Source: Crocinitomicaceae bacterium
Lineage (GTDB): Bacteria; Bacteroidota; Bacteroidia; Flavobacteriales_D; Sanyastnellaceae
NCBI GenBank assembly: GCA_002720375.1
Contig: PBIE01000009.1
Span: 32,687 to 69,340, forward strand
Reading direction: 5' to 3'
Length of the DNA: 36,654 bases
Program-made: the position numbers and the translations under genes
Part shown: one piece after another, positions 22,042 to 36,654 of the stretch
Position numbering within the stretch: the stretch's first letter is position 1
Layout: every line of letters begins with the position of its first letter
The notes under the pieces: generated by a model
Told to the model about the DNA's origin: nothing
Database searches by the model: none
Seen by the model: only the letters and a program-made list of their open reading frames with translations

Positions 22042-23040
22042 ATGTGCAGATTCTATTTACGATTTCTATTTGGCGCCTCTGCGCTCTGGATGGCCACTTT
22101 TCCGCTTTCCGCGCAGACTTGCTCGGATCCACAATTGCTCTGTCCTGAGGCACCGACATCGGTTTTTGTCCTTGACGTGGCGGATGCCCTCTTGAATTTC
22201 GAATGCATTGATGCCACCCATGTGGCTGTTCTTCGCTTCCGGTCTGATCATGATTTTGACAATCCGGGCAGTGCGCGCATCCGCATTTCCCAAGTTTCAT
22301 GTGAGGGCGCGTTGGGGCCAGATACATTGTCTGCCGTGGTTGTGAGCTCATCTGGAGACCCATGTGAACCGGCGGCTTTGACCGCCATGGGGCCGTGCGT
22401 TTCAGGCACGAATGACTTGGTGTGGGAGTCTTCGGCCCTCTTGCACAACAGTGAGTATTTCTTGCTCATAGGAACCCAGCATGACCCCGCGGACACCTTG
22501 TGTGCGATGGTGGTCGAGTTGGAGGGAAGCGGGGTCACCATGGACGTTTGTTGCAACCACACGTTGATTCCAGGCTCGTCGGCTGAACTCACTGTGGCTG
22601 GGGGCGACCCTGTGTTTGGTTATGTGTGGTCCCCAGATTTCTATCTCTCCGACCCGGATTTGGCGACGACTACAGTAACGCCGGCTGAAACCATCACTTA
22701 TCAGGTGGACGGCCAGATAGGGGATTGCCAAGTGAGCAGCGCTGTGACCGTGACAGTTGGCTCACCCATTCGCGTGCCCAACAGCTTCACGCCAAACGGA
22801 GACAACGTCAATGATTTTTGGGGGATTGATGGCATCGCCGCTTTCCCCGGGGCCAAGGTGGAGGTGTTCAACCGATGGGGACAATTGGTACACCGTTCAC
22901 TGGGTTACGCCCAAGCTTGGGACGGGCGAGGCCGATCCGGGAAGCCACTGACCCCAGGTACTTACTACTACGTTATTGAACTTAACGACGCGGATCTTCC
23001 CATTCCGCCGGAAACTGGCCACGTGGCGATCATCCGATGA
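22042..23040 (+). CDS. T9SS-exported surface protein with CHU_C sorting domain (cassette 1)
   Basis: A 332-residue exported protein. A signal peptide ends at PLSAQ near residue 24. Residues about 28-165 are Cys-bearing and unassigned, residues about 165-243 look like an Ig/PKD-like domain (SPDFYLSDPDLATTTVTP), and residues about 246-332 are the CHU_C/gliding-motility-associated C-terminal domain (VPNSFTPNGDNVND, VEVFNRWGQLVH, TPGTYYYVIEL, GHVAIIR), a type B T9SS signal. The stop overlaps the start of the following PorP/SprF gene as ATGA, so the two should be translated together. A 100-bp gap precedes it; a near-match to the -7 element (TACCTTCG) at about 22023 is not convincing. Binding partner or ligand is unknown. 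Confidence 0.87.
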   Translation: MCRFYLRFLFGASALWMATFPLSAQTCSDPQLLCPEAPTSVFVLDVADALLNFECIDATHVAVLRFRSDHDFDNPGSARIRISQVSCEGALGPDTLSAVVVSSSGDPCEPAALTAMGPCVSGTNDLVWESSALLHNSEYFLLIGTQHDPADTLCAMVVELEGSGVTMDVCCNHTLIPGSSAELTVAGGDPVFGYVWSPDFYLSDPDLATTTVTPAETITYQVDGQIGDCQVSSAVTVTVGSPIRVPNSFTPNGDNVNDFWGIDGIAAFPGAKVEVFNRWGQLVHRSLGYAQAWDGRGRSGKPLTPGTYYYVIELNDADLPIPPETGHVAIIR

Positions 23041-23990
23041 AGCGCATTCGTTCTTTCTTTCGTTTTTCGTTGGTTGCCGGCATTTTGGCGGTGTCCTTCA
23101 GCATGGCCCAAGGCCAACAATTGCCCATCAGGACCAATTGGCAGTTCAACTATTTCCAAGAAAACCCGGCGTTTGCGGGATTCTCTGATTGTCTTGAGCT
23201 CAAGGCTGGGTATCGGCAACAATGGGCGGGATTCGACGGTGCTCCGCAGACGGCTTTTGCGAACCTTCAAGGTGAAATTGCCCGTTCTGCCGGCGGAAAT
23301 ATTCACGGTTTTGGGGGGCGCGTCACTGATGACAGTGCGGGGCCTTATGGGTTCACCCAACTCGATCTGGCATACGCCTATCATATGAAAATAGATCAGG
23401 GATGGCGCCTGGCTGCTGGCGCCGCATTCGGTTTCATGCAGTATCGACTGGCGCTTGGGGACATCGTTCTACCTGATTTCCAAGCGGGAAACGACCCCGC
23501 GATTACGTCCAATGCCAACCAGCTTCTCGCGCCCACACTGGACTTTGGGGTTTGGGCGTACAACAAATACACGTTTTGGGGCCTTTCGGTCCAGAATCTG
23601 ATTGAGCCCTCGGTGGACCAATGGGGACTTGACACCCGATTTCGTCGCCACGTGGGTTTCTATGGAGGTTCGCTGATTCGACTTGATGGACCCTGGAGTT
23701 TCCACCCGGCCGGGTCGCTGCGTTTTTCTGCTGGTGCGCCCGTGGCTGTTGACGTTCAAGCCTTGTTCGATTACGATGATGTGATTCGTTTCGGTTTGGG
23801 TTATCGAAATGAAACGGCGTTGAGCGGACTGTTCACCCTTCGCATCTTGGAGAATGTGACAGTGGGCTATGCGTACGACTGGAATGTGGGCCCACTGAGT
23901 CAAGCGGCCTCCAGTACACACGAAGTCACCCTCGGCATTCTGGCCTGTCCCGTCAAGGGAAGTCATGTCCCCTGTGCAGCATTTCAATGA
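23037..23990 (+). CDS. PorP/SprF-family outer-membrane protein (cassette 1)
   Basis: A 317-residue outer-membrane beta-barrel of the PorP/SprF family. A signal peptide ends at MAQGQQ near residue 26. The mature start QLPIRTNWQFNYFQENPAFAG has the family N-terminal pattern (YxxNPAxAG), and the rest alternates aromatic/hydrophobic strands, for example AYAYHMKIDQGWRLAAGAAFG and FGLGYRNETALSGLFTLRI. PorP/SprF proteins are usually encoded beside a CHU_C-tailed substrate and, for SprF, are needed to export or attach it; the ATGA coupling to the preceding gene fits that. The C-terminal tail ends with an unusual Cys pair (ILACPVKGSHVPCAAFQ). Confidence 0.9.
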   Translation: MKRIRSFFRFSLVAGILAVSFSMAQGQQLPIRTNWQFNYFQENPAFAGFSDCLELKAGYRQQWAGFDGAPQTAFANLQGEIARSAGGNIHGFGGRVTDDSAGPYGFTQLDLAYAYHMKIDQGWRLAAGAAFGFMQYRLALGDIVLPDFQAGNDPAITSNANQLLAPTLDFGVWAYNKYTFWGLSVQNLIEPSVDQWGLDTRFRRHVGFYGGSLIRLDGPWSFHPAGSLRFSAGAPVAVDVQALFDYDDVIRFGLGYRNETALSGLFTLRILENVTVGYAYDWNVGPLSQAASSTHEVTLGILACPVKGSHVPCAAFQ

Positions 23991-24039
23991 GAAGAATGGA
24001 ACACAATTCCATCTCGTTCGTAGAGGAAACATCGCGTTG

Positions 24040-27000
24040 ATGAAGACATGTTGCAGAGCATATGGTCCCCTTCCTTCTCTGCAACGGCGGGGACTTGATT
24101 TTGGATGGGTTCTGCTTCCCTTTCTGCTTCTTGCCCTTTCTATTCAAGTGGAAGCGCAATGCCCCGATGAGATAGACGTGCTTCAGCCCATTTCATGCAG
24201 CGGTGCCGATGATGGGGTGTTGATCGTTTCATTGCCCAGTGGAATTGATGCGTCCGACGTTTACTGGCTTATTGAAAGTGACACGTTATTTGGTGCGGTC
24301 CAATCGAACCTTGGCCCGGGCAGTTATTTGGCCTTCGTGCCGGGTTGTCCGCCGCTTGGGTCCACCCTGAACGAACCCTTTCCTTTTTTTATTTCGTCTT
24401 CAGTTTCGCAGTTGCCTACTTGCGATGACCCTTGTTCCGGGGAAATCACTGTGACCCCCAATTTTGGAGCGACTCCAGTTACTTATAGCTGGTCTCACAA
24501 CCTGACTGAGACAGGGCCCTTGGGGACAGGTGTGTGTGAGCAGGTGGTGTTGGTGTCCGCCACGGACGCCAATGGCTGCACGGATGAGGACATTGTCACT
24601 GTGGAAATTCCTCCGGGAGAGGTTCTTGCGTTTGGCACCGACCCTGGGTGCAATGGTTTTGCCGATGGTTCAGTTTCTGCCGTGGCCACAGGGGGGCTCG
24701 GCGGCGAATACAGTTTTTCATGGGTTGATGCGCAGGGAAATGCCGTCGGCAGCGGTGCGGATGTTCTCGGCTTGCAGGCAGGAAGCTACACGGTGACGGC
24801 AACGGATATCGGAGGGTGCAGCTCATCAACCAGTGTGTCTCTGTTTGACCCACCTCCTGTACAAGTGAACACGGGGTCCAGCGCAGTGTCCTGCAACGGA
24901 GAGGAGGACGGCACGGCCTTCGCTGACTTCGACAGCGCCGCCTTCTTTGAATGGACGGGCCCAAATGGCTTTTCCGCTAGTGGGCCAGACCTTGACGCTT
25001 TAACGGGTCTTGCCCCGGGAACATATTCCGTTGTGGTTATTGCATCGGATGGGTGTCTGGGTTCGGGGGCCGTCACAGTAGAGGAGCCTGGTGAATTGGT
25101 GGCTGATTCTTTTGTCTCCCCACCTTCTTGTCCTGGGTTGTCGAATGGAACGGTGGGGGTCGTTCCGGTTGGGGGAACCTCTCCGTACACCGTGTCATGG
25201 GTCCTTCCCTCTGGCGATGTTGCGTTTGGGTTGTTCTTGAATGAACAGCCTGCGGGTCTTTTTGAGTACAATGTGGTTGATGCTTTGGGTTGTGAAGCGA
25301 CTGGAAGCGTTGCGTTGGTCGACCAGGACCCAGTGGAGGTGGACATTCAGTCTACACCGCTTTTGTGTGCCGACGGTCCGGGTTCCGACTCTGGGTCTAT
25401 CTCGGCCACCGTTTCAGGTGGCGTCGGACCATACAGTGCAACTTGGGTGAACCCTGCCACGCTTGATGTGGTGGGGACAGGATTGAACATTGAAGGGTTG
25501 TCTGCAGGCACATATGGCGTTGGCATTTCGGATCAATTGGGGTGCACGTTGGACACGTTGGTGGAGGTGTCCGCGCCTGACACTTTGAATGTGTCCGTTT
25601 TGGCTACGATGCCCACGTGTTTTGGAGACGGCGATGGCTCAGCGCTTGCCGTTGTAGAGGGTGGGACTCCGGATTACATCATCGTTTGGTCTGGGAGCAT
25701 CAATCCAGCGGTGGGGCTTTCGGTTTCAGGTCTTGGAACGGGGGACTATACAGCAACAGCGGTGGACGCCAACGGCTGTGTAGCAGAGGTTGGGTTTGTT
25801 CTTCAGGCACCCGAGCCCTTGGTCTTTGAGGTCAACACCATGCCCGTGGGTTGTGACGGGTCGGATGGAGCGCTTATCGCCACGGTTTCGGGGGGCATCC
25901 CGGATTATGCTGTCTTGTGGTCCGGTTCGGAGGGCAGCATTGGCGATGGGTTGGAGCTTGTTGGGATTGAAGCAGGTGAATACACAGGCATCTTAACGGA
26001 TGCCAACGGGTGTACTTCGGAGTGGTTTGGAACGGTCGAGGTGCTTCCGGAGCTGGACGTCGCTGTATCGGTCTCAGTGGTGGATTGCAGTGAAGGAACC
26101 GCAGAACTCGAGGCAACTGCAAGTGGGGGAGCGGCCCCATTGAGCTTGACCGTTAGTGGGCCTGAAGGCCCGGTTTCTGCGGTTGAATGGCCCTCGCTTT
26201 CGCCAGGTGAATACAGTGTGACGGCCATGGATTTCCGCGGGTGTACGGTAGATACGTTCTGGGTCGTCAACCCCGCGTTGATTTTCGAGACGAGCGTCGT
26301 TTCTGAGGGCTGCACGGGGCCAGGTCAAATCACTGCCAGCGCATCTGGCGGTACCGCCTCCTATACTTACAATGCGCTCCCTGTGGGTGCTCCCTCCGTG
26401 TTGGATTCTTCTGGTGCTACATGGCACGGTCTTTCTGCAGGTATTTATGCTGTGAGCGTATCCGACGGGGTGTGCACTGCTGAGAGTGAAGTGTTGCTAG
26501 AGGGGTTCTCTTTGTTTGATTGGAATTTGACCTCGCTCGACTTTGCTTGTGCGTCATCACCAGGCGCCGCTTCGGTGGCCGTGATTGGTGGTGCTGAGCC
26601 AATCAGTTTTTATGGTTCGTCACTCGACGGAGCTGTTGTTTGGGATTCACCTGAGGCTTCAGGGCTGCCAGCAGGAGAATATGTGTTGAGTGTCGTGGAT
26701 GCTGCCGGTTGTGAGCGGGACACCTCTTTTGTGCTTGCCGCGCTCCCTGAGCTCACGTTATCTGTCACAGCAACCCCAATCAGCTGCCATGCTGCGAACG
26801 ACGGACAAATACTCGTGGAAGCAGCGGGTGGAAGTGAACCATTGATTGTTGTTGCAGAAGGCCCAGAAGGCATTTTGTTGGAGCCGTTGGAAGGGTTGAC
26901 CAGTGGAACCTACCTCACTGGTGTAGTGGATATCCGAGGTTGCGCCTTGGACACCTTGGTCTCTTTGGTTGAGCCCTCACCGCTTTCAGTTGAGGCCACA

Positions 27001-29160
27001 TCGTTTCCGGAAAGTTGTGATGGAATAGCGGATGGCATGGGATTACTTGTGGCTGACGGAGGCTCGGGTCTGCTGAGTTTTCAGTGGGACGGGGGCCCAC
27101 AGGATTCAGTGTGGTCGGGGCTAAACTCGGGCACCTATTTATGGACTGTAATCGATGCGCAGGGATGCGACACGTCGGGCACAGTTGTTGTGGAATCAGG
27201 AGGTGGATTGGATGTTATGGTGACGGTTGAAATAGAGCCGTGTGAGGGGAACAGTGCACAGGCAGAAGTCAATCTGACCGTGACGGGCAATGTGGATTCG
27301 GCCGCTGTTTTGCTCGGCGGGTTGCCCGCGGATTTGTCATCCACAACAGACACTACTGGCATCTGGTCTTGGACGGGACTTCCTTCGGGAACGTATGGGT
27401 GGACAGCGGGCTTAGGCCCAGGGTGTGAAACGTCAGGACAAGCGGAGGTGTTACTCCCGGAACCACTGGCTTGGGCTGGTTCAGTATTGCAGCCACTGTG
27501 CTCTTCTGACAGTGGAATGGTCAGCCTTTTTTCTGAGGGGGGTGTTGCGCCTGTGTTGTGGTCGTGGTCTGGGGTTTCTGTCTCTGGGGATTCGCTGTCA
27601 GGTTCCGGTTCTGAAGTGGGTGCATTGCCAGAAGGCATGTACACCTTCGTGGCGTTTGATTCGCTTGGGTGTTCGCTTGTCGAAACCATTGGGGTGACCC
27701 CGATTTCCAGTGGCCTTAACGCCGCCATCTCGCTTGTTCAACCGAGTTGCGGAGGCGCTCTTGTTGGGGAAGCGACGGTGACCCCGACGGGTGGCATTCC
27801 TCCTTATGAAATTGAGGTAGAGGGAGCAGTGGACAGTCTGTTTATCCCTTTCCTTGTGCCGGGTTTGTATCCATTTTCCCTTTTGGACTCTATCGGTTGT
27901 CTGGTTGAGGACACCCTGATTATTGAGCCAGCGAGTGCGTTTGAGCTCGTCGCCACGGTGGATTCTGCAACATGCGCCAACACCGAAGACGGGTTGATTT
28001 TATTGGAGACAAACAATGGAGTGGGAGAGGCCGACTTCACCTTCGTTGGGCCTTTTGGGGCATTGCCTAGCACCGACTCCATTCCTGATTTGTCTTCAGG
28101 CATCTATGAGGTCACGGCAATCGATGAAGCGGGTTGTCCCGCAGTTTTATTCGTTTCTGTTGGGGCGCCTCCGCCGGTTGTGGTGCTCTTGGACAGCCTC
28201 GACCGGCCAAGTTGCGCGGGGGATCAAGACGGTGCGCTTTTCGTGTCTGTGAGCGGCGGCAGCGGCGCGGGGTATGACATCCAGTGGACCACAGAAGGTG
28301 TTTTGGTCGGAGGCGGTGCAGTCCTTGATGGGGTGGGCGAGGGAATCTATGCTGTGGAGGTGACTGATGGTGCAGGTTGTAGCGGGGACATCGCCTCGAT
28401 TCCTTTGGTTGCAGAAGGCGATGTGGTATTGACAGTCCCCAATGACACGGCTTTGTGTGCAGGCATTCCATTTTCGATGGGGGCCAGTGCACAGGGAGCG
28501 ACAGATTTATCGTGGTCCCTTTCTGGTGGAACTACAGGGTTGGGATTGACTGCGTCCACGGATGTTGTCGTCGAGGGAGAAAGCCATTGGGTATTTACTG
28601 CTTCTAGGTTGGGTTGCGTGCGCACTGATTCCGTGATTGTGACTGGTTGGGCTCTGCCCATCCCGGATGCGGGGGCGGACGCGGTTGTAACAGAAGGAGG
28701 CTCGGCCGCGTTGGGCGGTGCCGTCAACCCAGACTGGGTTTACAGTTGGGAGCCTGCGTTGGATGTGGTGTCACCAGAATTGGCGGCAACCGCTACACAA
28801 CCCATGTCTTATGCAACTGAATTCATCCTCACGGCGACCTCTTCGGAAGGTTGTATTGGTGTGGATACGGTATGGGTTAATGTTCTGTTGGCGCTGGACA
28901 TTCCCTCCGGGTTTACACCGAACGGGGACGGCGTAAACGACCGGTGGAACCTGGGTGGACTGGATCAGTATCCCAGCGCTGAGATTACCCTTTTCAACCG
29001 GTGGGGAGACGTTTTGATGACTTTTGGTTCGACAGACGGGCCTTGGGACGGGAGGCTCAACGGGACGGATGTTCCAGTGGGCACTTACTACTATCATGTT
29101 CGGGTCGATGAGCCGGCGATGCAGGCGGAATGGACCGGGCCGATAACCTTGATGCGATGA
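24040..29160 (+). CDS. Giant SprB-like repeat adhesin with CHU_C sorting domain (cassette 2)
   Basis: About 1706 residues from the ATG at 24040, which gives a positive N-region and hydrophobic core (FGWVLLPFLLLALS) ending at VEAQ; an ATG at 23965 would overlap the previous gene by 26 bp. Eighteen or so tandem SprB-like units of about 80 residues follow, each with a cysteine near the start (SCxGxxDG), then VxGGxxPYxxxW, LxxGxYxVxVxD and a GC ending. An Ig/PKD-like region precedes the CHU_C domain at about 1621-1706 (IPSGFTPNGDGVND, ITLFNRWGD, VPVGTYYYHV). SprB-type proteins are T9SS-exported surface adhesins that drive gliding in Flavobacterium; here function is inferred. The 3' end overlaps the next PorP/SprF gene by 4 bp (ATGA). 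Confidence 0.88.
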   Translation: MKTCCRAYGPLPSLQRRGLDFGWVLLPFLLLALSIQVEAQCPDEIDVLQPISCSGADDGVLIVSLPSGIDASDVYWLIESDTLFGAVQSNLGPGSYLAFVPGCPPLGSTLNEPFPFFISSSVSQLPTCDDPCSGEITVTPNFGATPVTYSWSHNLTETGPLGTGVCEQVVLVSATDANGCTDEDIVTVEIPPGEVLAFGTDPGCNGFADGSVSAVATGGLGGEYSFSWVDAQGNAVGSGADVLGLQAGSYTVTATDIGGCSSSTSVSLFDPPPVQVNTGSSAVSCNGEEDGTAFADFDSAAFFEWTGPNGFSASGPDLDALTGLAPGTYSVVVIASDGCLGSGAVTVEEPGELVADSFVSPPSCPGLSNGTVGVVPVGGTSPYTVSWVLPSGDVAFGLFLNEQPAGLFEYNVVDALGCEATGSVALVDQDPVEVDIQSTPLLCADGPGSDSGSISATVSGGVGPYSATWVNPATLDVVGTGLNIEGLSAGTYGVGISDQLGCTLDTLVEVSAPDTLNVSVLATMPTCFGDGDGSALAVVEGGTPDYIIVWSGSINPAVGLSVSGLGTGDYTATAVDANGCVAEVGFVLQAPEPLVFEVNTMPVGCDGSDGALIATVSGGIPDYAVLWSGSEGSIGDGLELVGIEAGEYTGILTDANGCTSEWFGTVEVLPELDVAVSVSVVDCSEGTAELEATASGGAAPLSLTVSGPEGPVSAVEWPSLSPGEYSVTAMDFRGCTVDTFWVVNPALIFETSVVSEGCTGPGQITASASGGTASYTYNALPVGAPSVLDSSGATWHGLSAGIYAVSVSDGVCTAESEVLLEGFSLFDWNLTSLDFACASSPGAASVAVIGGAEPISFYGSSLDGAVVWDSPEASGLPAGEYVLSVVDAAGCERDTSFVLAALPELTLSVTATPISCHAANDGQILVEAAGGSEPLIVVAEGPEGILLEPLEGLTSGTYLTGVVDIRGCALDTLVSLVEPSPLSVEATSFPESCDGIADGMGLLVADGGSGLLSFQWDGGPQDSVWSGLNSGTYLWTVIDAQGCDTSGTVVVESGGGLDVMVTVEIEPCEGNSAQAEVNLTVTGNVDSAAVLLGGLPADLSSTTDTTGIWSWTGLPSGTYGWTAGLGPGCETSGQAEVLLPEPLAWAGSVLQPLCSSDSGMVSLFSEGGVAPVLWSWSGVSVSGDSLSGSGSEVGALPEGMYTFVAFDSLGCSLVETIGVTPISSGLNAAISLVQPSCGGALVGEATVTPTGGIPPYEIEVEGAVDSLFIPFLVPGLYPFSLLDSIGCLVEDTLIIEPASAFELVATVDSATCANTEDGLILLETNNGVGEADFTFVGPFGALPSTDSIPDLSSGIYEVTAIDEAGCPAVLFVSVGAPPPVVVLLDSLDRPSCAGDQDGALFVSVSGGSGAGYDIQWTTEGVLVGGGAVLDGVGEGIYAVEVTDGAGCSGDIASIPLVAEGDVVLTVPNDTALCAGIPFSMGASAQGATDLSWSLSGGTTGLGLTASTDVVVEGESHWVFTASRLGCVRTDSVIVTGWALPIPDAGADAVVTEGGSAALGGAVNPDWVYSWEPALDVVSPELAATATQPMSYATEFILTATSSEGCIGVDTVWVNVLLALDIPSGFTPNGDGVNDRWNLGGLDQYPSAEITLFNRWGDVLMTFGSTDGPWDGRLNGTDVPVGTYYYHVRVDEPAMQAEWTGPITLMR

Positions 29161-30056
29161 GTCCAAAACAGCGTTTTCTTCGTCCGGTTTTCGCGGTTCT
29201 CTTTTTACCCCTCTTGGTTGGGCAAGGGTGGGCTCAGCAGTTGCCTGTGACCACGTTGCCTCTGGAACACCCTTTTGATGCCCACCCGGGTGCTGCTTCG
29301 GACACGGCGATTCACGTTAGTATATGGCAGCGAAGTCCATGGACAGGGATCGCTTCGGCACCGCGCACTACAGCACTTGCGCTGACTTCTCCTACAGGGT
29401 CCAAGTCCATTGGTTGGGGCGCAAGGGTTTGGAGTGATGTGGCGGGTCCCACTCGCATGGCGGGTGCCCATGCGGGACTGGCGTATACCACCAAATGGAC
29501 GAAGTCTCTTCGCCTGTCTTTTGGGCTTGGCCTCGGGTGGACACAGTTTTCTATTGATGGGAACCGGATTGAGTTCGAGCAGGAGGGTGATCCTGCGTTG
29601 GGTGACACCTACCAAAGTGTTGGCGTCCCTGATGCCACAGCGGGAATTTGGATTTCTGGAGAGCGGTTTCGAGCGGGTTTCTCAGCGGGGCAAATTTTGG
29701 GCGGTAATCTTCCTGTTTATGATGGGACAGGCGTCGAGTCTCAGCTGGAGTCCCATTTGCGGGGTTTGCTGGCGTATCGCTTTGGTTCGGGCATGTTTGG
29801 CTGGACACCGCTGGTTCAGTTCCAGCATCTTCGTCCAATTCCGGCTGAGGCTTCTTTGTCATTGAGGGTCGATCGTAACCAGGAGCACTGGGTTATGGCG
29901 GGATATCGTACTGCTGGTGCGGCTCATTTTGGTGCCGGAATCCGAATCAACAACCAACTCATATTCAGTTACAACCGGAATTGGGCAATGGGTGCGTTGG
30001 CCCGAGTTTTGGGTGGTGGACACGAGGTTGTTTTGGCATTCACGGTGCCGCGTTGA
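29157..30056 (+). CDS. PorP/SprF-family outer-membrane protein (cassette 2)
   Basis: A 299-residue PorP/SprF-like beta-barrel with a signal peptide ending at GQGWAQ near residue 26. The mature part starts QLPVTTLPLEHPFDAHPGAA, a divergent version of the family N-terminus in which the usual YxxNPAxxG is HPFDAHPGA. Repeated amphipathic strands follow, for example GWGARVWSDVAGPTRMAGAH and LRLSFGLGLGWTQFS, and it ends with a strand EVVLAFTVPR. The open frame extends to 29130, but the ATG at 29157 forms an ATGA overlap with the SprB-like gene. It is presumably the dedicated partner for export or anchoring of the giant protein; that is inference from the conserved gene pair. Confidence 0.86.
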   Translation: MSPKQRFLRPVFAVLFLPLLVGQGWAQQLPVTTLPLEHPFDAHPGAASDTAIHVSIWQRSPWTGIASAPRTTALALTSPTGSKSIGWGARVWSDVAGPTRMAGAHAGLAYTTKWTKSLRLSFGLGLGWTQFSIDGNRIEFEQEGDPALGDTYQSVGVPDATAGIWISGERFRAGFSAGQILGGNLPVYDGTGVESQLESHLRGLLAYRFGSGMFGWTPLVQFQHLRPIPAEASLSLRVDRNQEHWVMAGYRTAGAAHFGAGIRINNQLIFSYNRNWAMGALARVLGGGHEVVLAFTVPR

Positions 30057-33087: not shown

Positions 33088-36000
33088 TCAGCGAAGAATC
33101 ATGACTGTACCGCTGTAGTCCCGCCCGTTGGGCAAAGTCAGCATGTAATAGTGTGTGCCGGATGATACATCTCTGGCATTCCACAGGTTGTCATAGTTCT
33201 CAGAGTAAAAGACTTGGTTTCCCCACCGGTCGTAGATGGCGAGAATTGACCCATCGTATTTGAGGAGACCATCGATTTCGAACGTATCGTTTTTGCCAAT
33301 TGACCCTTCTGCGGTTCCAGGGGTGAAGATGTTGGGAATGGTAATGTCACAGTTGTACCACTCGACTTGCCACTCGTATTCCTCTCCGCCTGTTGTGCAG
33401 GGGTTGTAGCCCGTCCCGGTCAGCACCAATGGGTTGTTGTAGTAGGTGGAATCCAAAAGATTGTCGAACATGGCTGTCGTGAAGGTGACCGCATCTGTGG
33501 TCAAGCCGGGTATGATGACGGCCGTTCCCGACGATCCTTGTTGTTCGATGGTCCAATTCCAGTTGACAGCGTTGTTGGCTGCCAACTCGAAGGTGTTCGA
33601 GATTTCTGGGCAAAGGAAGAGCGGTGTTTCTGATGGAAGAAGGACCGGCGAGGATGGACCCAAGTTCACGGGATACCCCATCCAAACGTATGTACTGTCT
33701 TCTAACGTGGTGCACCCCAAAGGGTCTTCGAAAACAGCAGAAATCCAGGTTTCATGGTGGGGGTTGAAGGTTGCGTTGAACGTGTTGCCGACACTTCCAT
33801 CCTCCCAAGTGACGGTCCAATCATTGGACGTCAGCGGATCAATGGTCAGCTGGGTTTCGCCGTCGCAACCGAGGGAGTATTCTGCAAGCGGGTTGGGTAC
33901 AGGTTCGAAAATGATGACCTCCACGCAGGACTCTGCTGTTCCGCACTCGTTTGTGGCTTCGAGGCAATATTCACCCGCATCATCGGCGTTCAGCGTTGGA
34001 TCATCGGCGCCAGGGATGTCGTTGTTTTGATATGACCACTGTAACTCGATTTCATCCGAAGCTTCCAACCCACCATCTAAGGTGACCTCTATACCTTCAT
34101 CGCAGACAATAATGTTCTCTCCCAGGTCTGGGTTGCCTTGTTCCGATGTGACGATGGTGAAGGGGAGCTCGATGGTGCCGCAGAGGTTACTCAACGTAAC
34201 GGACAGGTCGTATTGGTTGAAGCCATCAAATTGGTAGTCGGCAAACAAGCCTGTTACACTATTGGCTTCTGGCCACTCAATGGGGTCGAGGGTGCCTTGG
34301 AAGGCCGTGTCTACTGAGAAGTTGGCTGTTTCGCCGTCGCACAGGAGGTAGGTTCCGTCAGCCTGTAGGCTGTTTTCAGGCCCAACCAACGACCCAACAG
34401 GGGTCGTGCTTGTCTCCATGGGATAGCATGCGCTGTAGCCACAGTTGTCGTCCGTGAAACAAACTTCATACAACCCCAATCCGCTGGTCGGGGTGAAGAA
34501 GGTATTGAATTCGGTGGGGTCTGAAAAGAATCCAGTACCCTGGCTCACGCTCCAAGACCCGCCAACCGGGTCGACCTCACAGTTGGCTGTTGCAGAGTAA
34601 ACCAAACCTCCTCCAGCGGGGAGGTCCTCAACTTGTTGGGGGTTGGTCGTGGTGCAGTTGTAAACGGTAAACCCGAAGTCGTCTACGGGCGCATTCTCTC
34701 CTGTAACCAGTACGATGTCTACTTGGTTACCGAGCGAAACTTCAATGTCGGTGTGGGCCGTAAAGACATCAAACGATGTCAGGATGTAATTGGATTCAAC
34801 CCCGTCGGCGTCGGTGATGGTGACAGCCAAATAATTGTCACCTCCCCAACCAGTAGGGTCGGAGGCCGTCATGTAGATAAGCAAGGGGCCAGCGTCCGGC
34901 GTGGTGTATCCACCAGCGAATTGAACCGAGTATAGGCTGTCACATACAGGTGGGATGGTCACCTCGGGAATCACCTGGGTCACCTGCTCAATGTTGAAGA
35001 CCCGCTGACCTTGGCAGCCGTCATCGTTGGTCACGAGGATTCTGTATGAACCGGGCGTGACGCCAATGGCTGTGTCACCGAGCATTTCTGCTGGAATGAC
35101 AATTTCTCCGCCGGCGTCATTCCAGTTCGCATCCCACGTGTACTCTACAAACGAGTCCATGTCGGGGTCACATATTGAAACGGTGGCAGTGTCGTCGCCG
35201 CAAATGGGGTTTGGCTCGACACAGACATCAGGAAGAAAGTACAGGCTTTGGTCGATGAAGAACTCGGCTGTAGCGGAACACCCCACATCGATGGAAGCCG
35301 TAACTGCAAACGCGCCGCCAAAAGCATATGTGCACTCTGGCCCAGTACACCCCAGTGACCAACTGTAGTTGTCAAAATCGTCGTTGCAAGTGATGGTGGT
35401 CTCCTGACCAGAACAGATGCTGAAGTCGCCATCTACAGTGAGCGCGGGAAGTTCTATATCAAGGACTTCTACATAATAGCTAAGGACGGTTTCACCGGCT
35501 GGTGTTCCGTCATCCACGGCAGTAATTTCAAGAAAGTAGGTGCCTACATTTTCGGGTGTTCCCGCGAGGAAGGCGTCAATGAAAGTGATGCCATTCTCTA
35601 CATACGTCCCATTCTGATTTACCGCAGCGATGTCAGACATCGTCACGCTTACCGTTTGCCCTTCCTCGGGAGAAAGAAAGCCGATGTTGAGGTCAAGCGT
35701 GTCGTTTAGGCAGACAAACAGTGTGTCATCGCATCCGCCTCCAGGTGTTTGCGTTGGGACGGGGGCTTGGTTGGGGTCAGAGCCAGATACATTAATGCAA
35801 AAGTCCTGTCCATTCAACCAAAAACAACCGTCTTGTTCTTCTGGCGAGGCGCCATATGGTCCATTGTACAGGTTGGAGGGTAGGTTGAATCTGCCGAATT
35901 GAACGAAGTCGTCGCCACCTTGGTTTTCTTCATCCACGCCAACAGTAGCAGGGTCAGGCCCACAGCAACCACCTGAACCACCTACGTCTCCGTGTGACCA

Positions 36001-36654
36001 CTCCATGTTTTGGTAGCAGAGTTGAACGTTGTTGCCCTCTCCAATCGAAACAGAACCATCTGCACTAAAGGCAATTTGGTAACTCACTGTTCTGTCGTCG
36101 TGGTTGTTGTAATATCCGACATCCACCCAATTGACATATACAACCTCAGGCGTGATGCGGTAATAGATGTCACCTGTCAACCGGTAGTCACCGTCTGCCC
36201 AATATCCAGCAATGACGCTGTAGTTGGCGTCTGGAAACTCTTCTGGTGTCCAGTCGATTACTGGTTCACTAAAGGAAATCAGGCCCTTGGAGTTGATGTA
36301 GAATTCATTGTATGTCGCTCCAAACAAGTTGAACGTAAACGGCAAGGAAAGCGGTCCATGAGAGTAGTCCACATCAATTCCGGCACCACCCGTGAATTGT
36401 TGCATTTCAGGTGTGATTTCGATGTACGTCTCATCGGGTTCTATCCAGCAATCGCACTCTCCAGCACGACTTAATCTTTCGGCTTTTCTGGCTTCTTTTC
36501 TCGCCAGGTATTCCGGCGTGCTTTGGTGTCTTTTAATGACGTCGATGACATCTTGCTCATTGTAGCCCTCCCAGTTTCGGTAGGTTTCCCACTCATCTCG
36601 GTCCATCATCATAACGGCAAATTCAAAGCCGCCATATTTTCCGTAAAGCGCAGC
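33088..36654 (-). CDS. Nidogen-like CHU_C-tailed secreted protein (5' end outside window)
   Basis: At least 1188 residues; the frame is open to the window edge, so the start and any signal peptide lie beyond base 36654. The ATGs at 36612, 36609 and 36606 are internal: the upstream codons read LYGKYGGFEFAV. After a charged stretch comes a nidogen-like domain (about residues 80-265 of the visible part) with YNEFYINSKGLISFSEP, IAGYWADGD and VVYVNWVDVGYYN. Several Cys-bearing Ig/PKD-like modules follow without an obvious catalytic motif. The last about 86 residues are a CHU_C domain (IPNIFTPG, AIYDRWGNQVFYSENYDN, GTHYYMLTL, GTVMILR), a T9SS type B signal. Unlike the two cassettes at 22-30 kb, no PorP/SprF gene follows; radA does. 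Confidence 0.85.
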   Translation of the reverse strand, partial: AALYGKYGGFEFAVMMMDRDEWETYRNWEGYNEQDVIDVIKRHQSTPEYLARKEARKAERLSRAGECDCWIEPDETYIEITPEMQQFTGGAGIDVDYSHGPLSLPFTFNLFGATYNEFYINSKGLISFSEPVIDWTPEEFPDANYSVIAGYWADGDYRLTGDIYYRITPEVVYVNWVDVGYYNNHDDRTVSYQIAFSADGSVSIGEGNNVQLCYQNMEWSHGDVGGSGGCCGPDPATVGVDEENQGGDDFVQFGRFNLPSNLYNGPYGASPEEQDGCFWLNGQDFCINVSGSDPNQAPVPTQTPGGGCDDTLFVCLNDTLDLNIGFLSPEEGQTVSVTMSDIAAVNQNGTYVENGITFIDAFLAGTPENVGTYFLEITAVDDGTPAGETVLSYYVEVLDIELPALTVDGDFSICSGQETTITCNDDFDNYSWSLGCTGPECTYAFGGAFAVTASIDVGCSATAEFFIDQSLYFLPDVCVEPNPICGDDTATVSICDPDMDSFVEYTWDANWNDAGGEIVIPAEMLGDTAIGVTPGSYRILVTNDDGCQGQRVFNIEQVTQVIPEVTIPPVCDSLYSVQFAGGYTTPDAGPLLIYMTASDPTGWGGDNYLAVTITDADGVESNYILTSFDVFTAHTDIEVSLGNQVDIVLVTGENAPVDDFGFTVYNCTTTNPQQVEDLPAGGGLVYSATANCEVDPVGGSWSVSQGTGFFSDPTEFNTFFTPTSGLGLYEVCFTDDNCGYSACYPMETSTTPVGSLVGPENSLQADGTYLLCDGETANFSVDTAFQGTLDPIEWPEANSVTGLFADYQFDGFNQYDLSVTLSNLCGTIELPFTIVTSEQGNPDLGENIIVCDEGIEVTLDGGLEASDEIELQWSYQNNDIPGADDPTLNADDAGEYCLEATNECGTAESCVEVIIFEPVPNPLAEYSLGCDGETQLTIDPLTSNDWTVTWEDGSVGNTFNATFNPHHETWISAVFEDPLGCTTLEDSTYVWMGYPVNLGPSSPVLLPSETPLFLCPEISNTFELAANNAVNWNWTIEQQGSSGTAVIIPGLTTDAVTFTTAMFDNLLDSTYYNNPLVLTGTGYNPCTTGGEEYEWQVEWYNCDITIPNIFTPGTAEGSIGKNDTFEIDGLLKYDGSILAIYDRWGNQVFYSENYDNLWNARDVSSGTHYYMLTLPNGRDYSGTVMILR

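Follow-up and report, generated by a model that had tools for sequence, protein, structure and literature searches.

In the SprB-SprF system of Flavobacterium johnsoniae, the gene for a type B T9SS substrate is followed by the gene for a PorP/SprF carrier. SprB is bound to SprF (PMC9143113), and the Cys-Xaa-Cys tail of SprF is disulfide-bonded to the track protein GldK, this tail being needed for sustained SprB movement and not for export (PMC12635249). The mobile type B substrates of F. johnsoniae have no porE-like gene in their operon and a static one has it (PMC12618676). In the PorP-PorE-PG1035 system of Porphyromonas gingivalis, a PorP family barrel holds a type B protein on the surface, as one carrier with one substrate in a complex with PorE (PMC9143113). 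Such systems touch on how bacteria choose which surface proteins glide and which stay, a matter on which the experiments considered here concern a few F. johnsoniae pairs.

The window (the whole stretch of 36,654 nucleotides that was analysed) has two cassettes of a type B T9SS substrate and a PorP/SprF carrier at 22042-30056. The first-pass annotation had proposed this arrangement, and profile matches bear it out: all four genes are on the plus strand in the order s1-P1-s2-P2, and both substrate-carrier joints are ATGA overlaps. The first gene, s1 (22042..23040), encodes a small type B substrate of 332 amino acids (aa) with an N-terminal domain and a CHU_C domain (2.6e-24; TIGR04131, 67.1 bits), the type B sorting domain spanning residues 244-332 (22771..23037). 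Its stop overlaps the start of P1 at 23037..23040. P1 (23037..23990) is a carrier of 317 aa (TIGR03519, 193.6 bits) with an NPAFAG motif (23163..23180) and a C-terminal tail (23946..23987) that contains twin cysteines, Cys304 and Cys313, spaced C-x8-C. The second substrate, s2 (24040..29160), is a large protein of 1706 aa with 10 SprB stretches, a CHU_C domain (1.4e-18) and a type B sorting domain at residues 1620-1706 (28897..29157; TIGR04131, 70.9 bits). Its stop overlaps at 29157..29160 the start of P2 (29157..30056), a carrier of 299 aa without a cysteine tail (TIGR03519, 129.6 bits). These scores exceed the cut-offs of TIGR03519 (90.55 bits, curated) and TIGR04131 (35 bits); both carriers also exceed the Pfam cut-off (PF11751), and the type B domain is recognized by PF13585 as well. 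The annotation was also right that the substrates are fivefold apart in size (ratio of s2 to s1, 5.1) and that the carriers are divergent (25% identity over P2 residues 15-295). For s2 and P2, the mechanical ORF calls begin at 23965 and 29130, ahead of the likely start codons at 24040 and 29157. The s2 start is placed at 24040 because of a comparison within the genus: it lies 49 nt past the P1 stop in 9 of the 11 members whose P1 and P2 share a locus.

The tandem resembles SprB-SprF in having a substrate gene and then a carrier gene, in the SprB repeats of s2 and, apart from the wider spacing of its cysteines, in the cysteine tail of P1. It differs in how these are combined: the giant adhesin SprB belongs to a cysteine-tailed carrier, whereas here the large s2 belongs to the tail-less P2 and the small s1 to P1. 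As a natural pair, with a small cargo on a track-type tail and a large cargo without one, the tandem is the reverse of SprB-SprF. Each cassette also resembles the static Fjoh_3952-Fjoh_3951-Fjoh_3950 set of F. johnsoniae, in which a type B substrate has a carrier downstream, but that set includes a PorE-like gene and none follows P1 or P2. The substrate-carrier pair itself is ordinary; what is new is a conserved locus of two carriers with opposite tails. In the accessible text of the literature searched, we found no description of a tandem locus of this kind or of the split between tail types and PorE described below.

The host genome, a metagenome assembly that is 64.7% complete, yielded 4 PorP/SprF genes and 14 CHU_C domains; 3 of the 4 carriers have a CHU_C gene directly upstream and the remaining one is at a contig edge. 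The 15 close relatives (identity at least 50%) are uncultivated genomes of Flavobacteriales, one of them labelled Crocinitomicaceae. When P2 was searched against 40 relatives, carrier pairs several kb apart on one strand were also found in other families, and carrier loci were then taken from 31 genomes and mapped. An order-wide sample of 150 genomes contains a P2 orthologue in 53, by a threshold that was set after the gap between 352 bits and the next match, at 288 bits, was seen. P1 is on the same contig in 37 of these 53 genomes, on a different contig in 10 and not clearly present in 6. In 36 of the 37, P1 precedes P2 on the same strand at a distance of 5-14 kb; the 36 represent seven families, with 14 in the family of the window and 3, 3, 5, 2, 1 and 8 in the six others. 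The sole exception is G037, with P1 and P2 on opposite strands and 328 kb between them. The s1-P1-s2-P2 order was read complete in 27 loci (11 from the genus, 9 from other genera and 7 from family f9). In the distant loci read, s1 is again small and s2 large, so their difference in size is not a recent one. The N-terminal domain of s1 is present in the substrate before every P1 examined (30/30 and a further 20/20 loci), and its profile has weak matches (17 to 36 bits) in 7/27 P2 partners and 6/81 other substrates. The SprB repeats of s2 are also found in L070, L073 and L216, from the three other genera scanned (three families), and in the gene after P1 of G026. The region is a single ancient two-cassette locus, probably for surface adhesins, that has been kept in several families. 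Two loci of one family (L073 of G027 and L077 of G038) have a third cassette after the tandem, with substrate frames of 1247 and 1230 aa and a carrier ending in SPRYF or NPRYF.

Within the genus, the ATGA overlap is present at 16/17 P1 joints and 16/16 P2 joints; outside it, the counts are 6/13 and 2/11. Because the overlap is kept at the P1 and P2 joints of the genus and is rarer at other substrate-carrier pairs (4/11 in the genus and 8/70 outside), its occurrence in the tandem is non-trivial. The loss of the N-terminal NPAxAG motif from P2, pointed out in the first-pass annotation, is real for the pair in the window (NPAFAG in P1, HPGAAS in P2) but is a feature of this genus. Among the carriers listed as matches, the motif is present in 29/30 P1, 9/27 P2 and 94/119 others. 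None of the 16 P2 proteins of the genus has it, reading HPA or HPG at this place, compared with 9/11 P2 proteins outside the genus, and we therefore attribute the difference to erosion inside the genus and not to loss at the split between P1 and P2.

The predicted structure of P1 (14 strands, mean pLDDT 79.5) fits an outer-membrane barrel of the PorV/FadL type. Among PDB entries, the model is closest to chain F of the T9SS complex 8gl6, with a TM of 0.62 normalised by query length, and its matches include an entry whose title names a FadL mutant lacking NPA; the NPA of P1 may be a FadL-type hatch motif. A search of solved structures with the P1 sequence gave no match. In the model, which covers 301 residues, the last strand extends to residue 287 and confidence is low for residues 291-301, which suits a flexible end in the periplasm. 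The model of s1 is beta-rich (mean pLDDT 84.6), and a fold search of the PDB with it returned generic Ig-like chains only (TM about 0.2), with no specific assignment.

The two carriers end in opposite ways. The last 18 residues of P1 contain exactly two cysteines in 50/50 genes: 30/30 tips of a clade assembled from 29 genes chosen by tail pattern plus one member added by the tree (its tail also has two cysteines), and 20/20 further genes found with a profile that includes the tail. The last 18 residues of P2 contain no cysteine in 27/27 clade members and 7/7 further genes (34/34). The spacing of the P1 cysteines is C-x8 to x12-C in all 50 genes, unlike the C-x-C of SprF. A GldK match is present in 12/12 genomes searched. 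In the GldK alignment, for which 10 of the 12 loci gave a frame, three cysteine columns (lipobox included) are present in 9 of 10 rows, these columns not being equated with Cys343; the row without them (L211) looks misframed. GldJ was found in 148 of the 150 genomes of the order, a frequency that makes its presence uninformative as a test of a link between P1 and the track, and was not found in the host genome at its 64.7% completeness.

Tail type is also related to the presence of PorE. No PorE-like gene lies directly downstream of P1 (0/30) or P2 (0/26) in the loci with enough downstream sequence; as the gene after P1 in the tandem is s2, a PorE gene right behind P1 is hardly to be expected. 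Outside the genus and among the matches listed, PorE is downstream of 0/38 terminal-cysteine carriers and 44/87 others, one further carrier being left out for lack of downstream sequence. For carriers with an upstream substrate in the same set, PorE follows 36/38 PRxF ends and 8/56 of all other ends. The relationship is less sharp across all 176 carriers listed, with genus and substrate-less carriers included (PRxF ends with PorE, 39/54). The PorE profile derives from 11 neighbours, all of them after PRxF-type carriers, and could favour PorE finds there; the OmpA motif scan behind this profile, which is blind to tails, gave none beside the terminal-cysteine carriers among the matches listed. 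Pfam identifies PD40 and OmpA in both of two PorE-like neighbours and TPR in one. Clade-level tests of tail against PorE give p values from 4e-6 to 0.03 depending on the cut chosen, again among the matches listed. Simple parsimony on this set has the cysteine tail changing about 4 times and PorE presence 7 times; because the tail changed so seldom, the pattern has few independent origins. In three further genomes (G076, G121 and G104; 59 matches, 30 loci read), a cysteine motif closes the tail of 8/30 carriers read, and a C-x-C end is seen at none of the 30 loci. One of these 8 carriers (L294 of G076), whose tail is RVCPDFI, lies near a PorE-like gene (143 bits) and is the clear exception to the pattern, and a P1 (L293) has a weak 25-bit PorE match.

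Other carriers are found beside track genes. By coordinates, one precedes the gldJ match by 91-184 nt in 22 genomes, which were picked where both places were seen and are not a census; its tail, read in 15 of these 22, has a terminal cysteine motif in every case, mostly CPSF. This carrier has no adjacent type B substrate, for example at C76:33930-36068 of G017. A further carrier is directly upstream of gldK in 12/12 genomes searched (also by coordinates) and ends in NPRFL in several, with NPRIW and TPIFL as variants. In G000, the NPRFL-ended carrier directly upstream of gldK (C38:60-950, L003) resembles what would be the core PorP in an operon of the porPKLMN type. Given the position of porP before porK, we take this carrier, and not P1 or P2, to be the counterpart of P. 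gingivalis PorP.

Building on the genes, joints, conservation, tails and PorE pattern observed here, and on analogy with F. johnsoniae for carriage, anchoring and the disulfide link, we favour a reading of the region as a two-cassette adhesin locus in which P1 carries s1 and is linked to the gliding track, and P2 carries s2 and is not tied by known routes (probability roughly 0.55). Each cassette would yield a type B T9SS substrate and its outer-membrane carrier by coupled translation, and the carrier would take the substrate from the translocon and hold it on the surface. P1 would carry the small s1, and P2 the large SprB-repeat protein s2. We read P1 and not P2 as track-linked because the cysteine tail of SprF is disulfide-linked to GldK (PMC12635249). 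By this analogy, the periplasmic twin-cysteine tail of P1 most likely forms a disulfide with GldK of the gliding track, and s1 would thereby be moved along the cell; the cysteine spacing, which is other than the C-x-C of SprF, argues against this link. Also weighing against it are that the genus is not known to glide, that GldJ was not found in the host genome and that the giant adhesin of F. johnsoniae, SprB, rides on the cysteine-tailed carrier. P2 would be tied to neither track nor cell wall by known routes, because it has no cysteine tail and no PorE partner gene. The opposite ends of P1 and P2 suggest a rule, open to testing, on which surface proteins move; should the tail of a carrier act as a label, a dozen residues could be enough to tell the fate of many adhesins.

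The first-pass annotation had instead read the tandem as an ancient duplication with co-diversification of partner pairs. Simple duplication is not supported by a tree of 176 carriers from the matches listed (1 of 177 was left out as too short): P1 and P2 are not sister clades, and their common ancestor spans 76 of the 176. With midpoint rooting, they form separate clades with support of 0.999 and 0.977, respectively. In this set, genus loci beyond the tandem come from G000, G001, G005 and G006, with one locus from G019 and only the tandem from G031 and G039; G020 and G023 are outside it. Among the same matches, P2 ranks first to third of the carriers by closeness to P1 in each of nine genomes. 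The trees of the CHU_C domains (CTDs) and of the carriers did not give matching topologies: the CTD tree leaves the classes without resolution (supports of 0.39 and 0.0) because the alignment of 86 columns is too short, and distance correlation and nearest-class tests were used instead. Within genomes, carrier and CTD distances correlate (Stouffer Z of 7.4 from trees and 7.6 from raw distances) in the 10 of 31 genomes that have six or more pairs; in 7 of these 10, the observed rank correlation was reached by at most 38 of 2001 permutations. The correlation persists with raw distances and after removal of the cysteine-tailed carriers. With strong carriers only (over 250 bits or at least the median of the genome), it is weaker and is lost in 3 of 8 genomes (G027, G033 and G038). 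The nearest CTD in another family belongs to the same class for 13/15 P1 and 13/13 P2 substrates, the genus subjects being G000 and G005 only. Co-diversification is thus partly supported, but inside genomes the nearest carrier and the nearest CTD point to one and the same pair in only 29/87 cases, which speaks against tight one-to-one mirroring. The correlation supports stable pairing and not recognition, because linked, co-inherited genes give the same signal. Recognition by the carrier rests on published experiments (PMC12618676, PMC9143113) and not on the distances here: carriers are shown to set substrate specificity in F. johnsoniae, with cognate pairs and some cross-talk (PMC12618676). 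The pairs could still be used to test carrier specificity, as had been suggested, but that question is largely answered in print for this species (PMC12618676). A tandem duplication followed by partner co-diversification, with cargo specificity as its main meaning, would account for the correlated distances, the closeness of P2 to P1 and the faithfulness of the nearest CTD to class. We nevertheless consider it improbable, as the two carriers are not sisters, co-inheritance would yield the correlation without any recognition, and the split between the P1 and P2 tails is left unexplained.

A more serious alternative, although still an unlikely one, is that two independent adhesin cassettes stand side by side by inherited order, with the P1 cysteines forming an internal disulfide or bonding another periplasmic partner unrelated to the track. 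Their separability is evident from G018 and G024, which have P1 without a P2-level match, from the distant carriers of G037, from the six genomes with P2 and no clear P1, and from the many with P1 and no P2; the unusual cysteine spacing points the same way. Against independence, P1 and P2 keep their order and strand in 36 of 37 genomes across seven families; against a role unrelated to the track, terminal-cysteine carriers are mostly without PorE and, among the matches listed, another such carrier adjoins gldJ. PorG is also disulfide-bonded to GldK (PMC12635249), and P1 is more widespread than P2 in the order sample, as would suit a PorG-like energiser or core T9SS part whose GldK disulfide serves secretion, s1 being a structural subunit. 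This is highly improbable, as two profiles place P1 in the PorP/SprF family and its gene is coupled with that of a type B substrate, the carrier adjoining gldK is a different gene, and several genera have no clear P1. The favoured reading of a track-linked P1 beside an untied P2 could also be extended, quite speculatively, to a two-carrier gliding unit: s1-P1 would be a covalent tug on the moving track, and s2, on the tail-less P2, would be moved by binding s1 or P1. More generally, carrier ends would serve as an address label, with a cysteine tail directing to the gliding track, PRxF to PorE and the cell wall, and the lack of a tail to a partner carrier. We think it doubtful that the locus works in this way.

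Two other genes of the window lie beyond the tandem. The gene after P2 (30131-31042, plus strand) encodes a protein of 303 aa with an acidic middle part and no Pfam match at 0.001. On the minus strand at 33088-36612 is a third CHU_C protein, of 1174 aa, with a Nidogen-like match and no adjoining carrier gene found; it is probably an orphan type B substrate whose carrier is encoded elsewhere.
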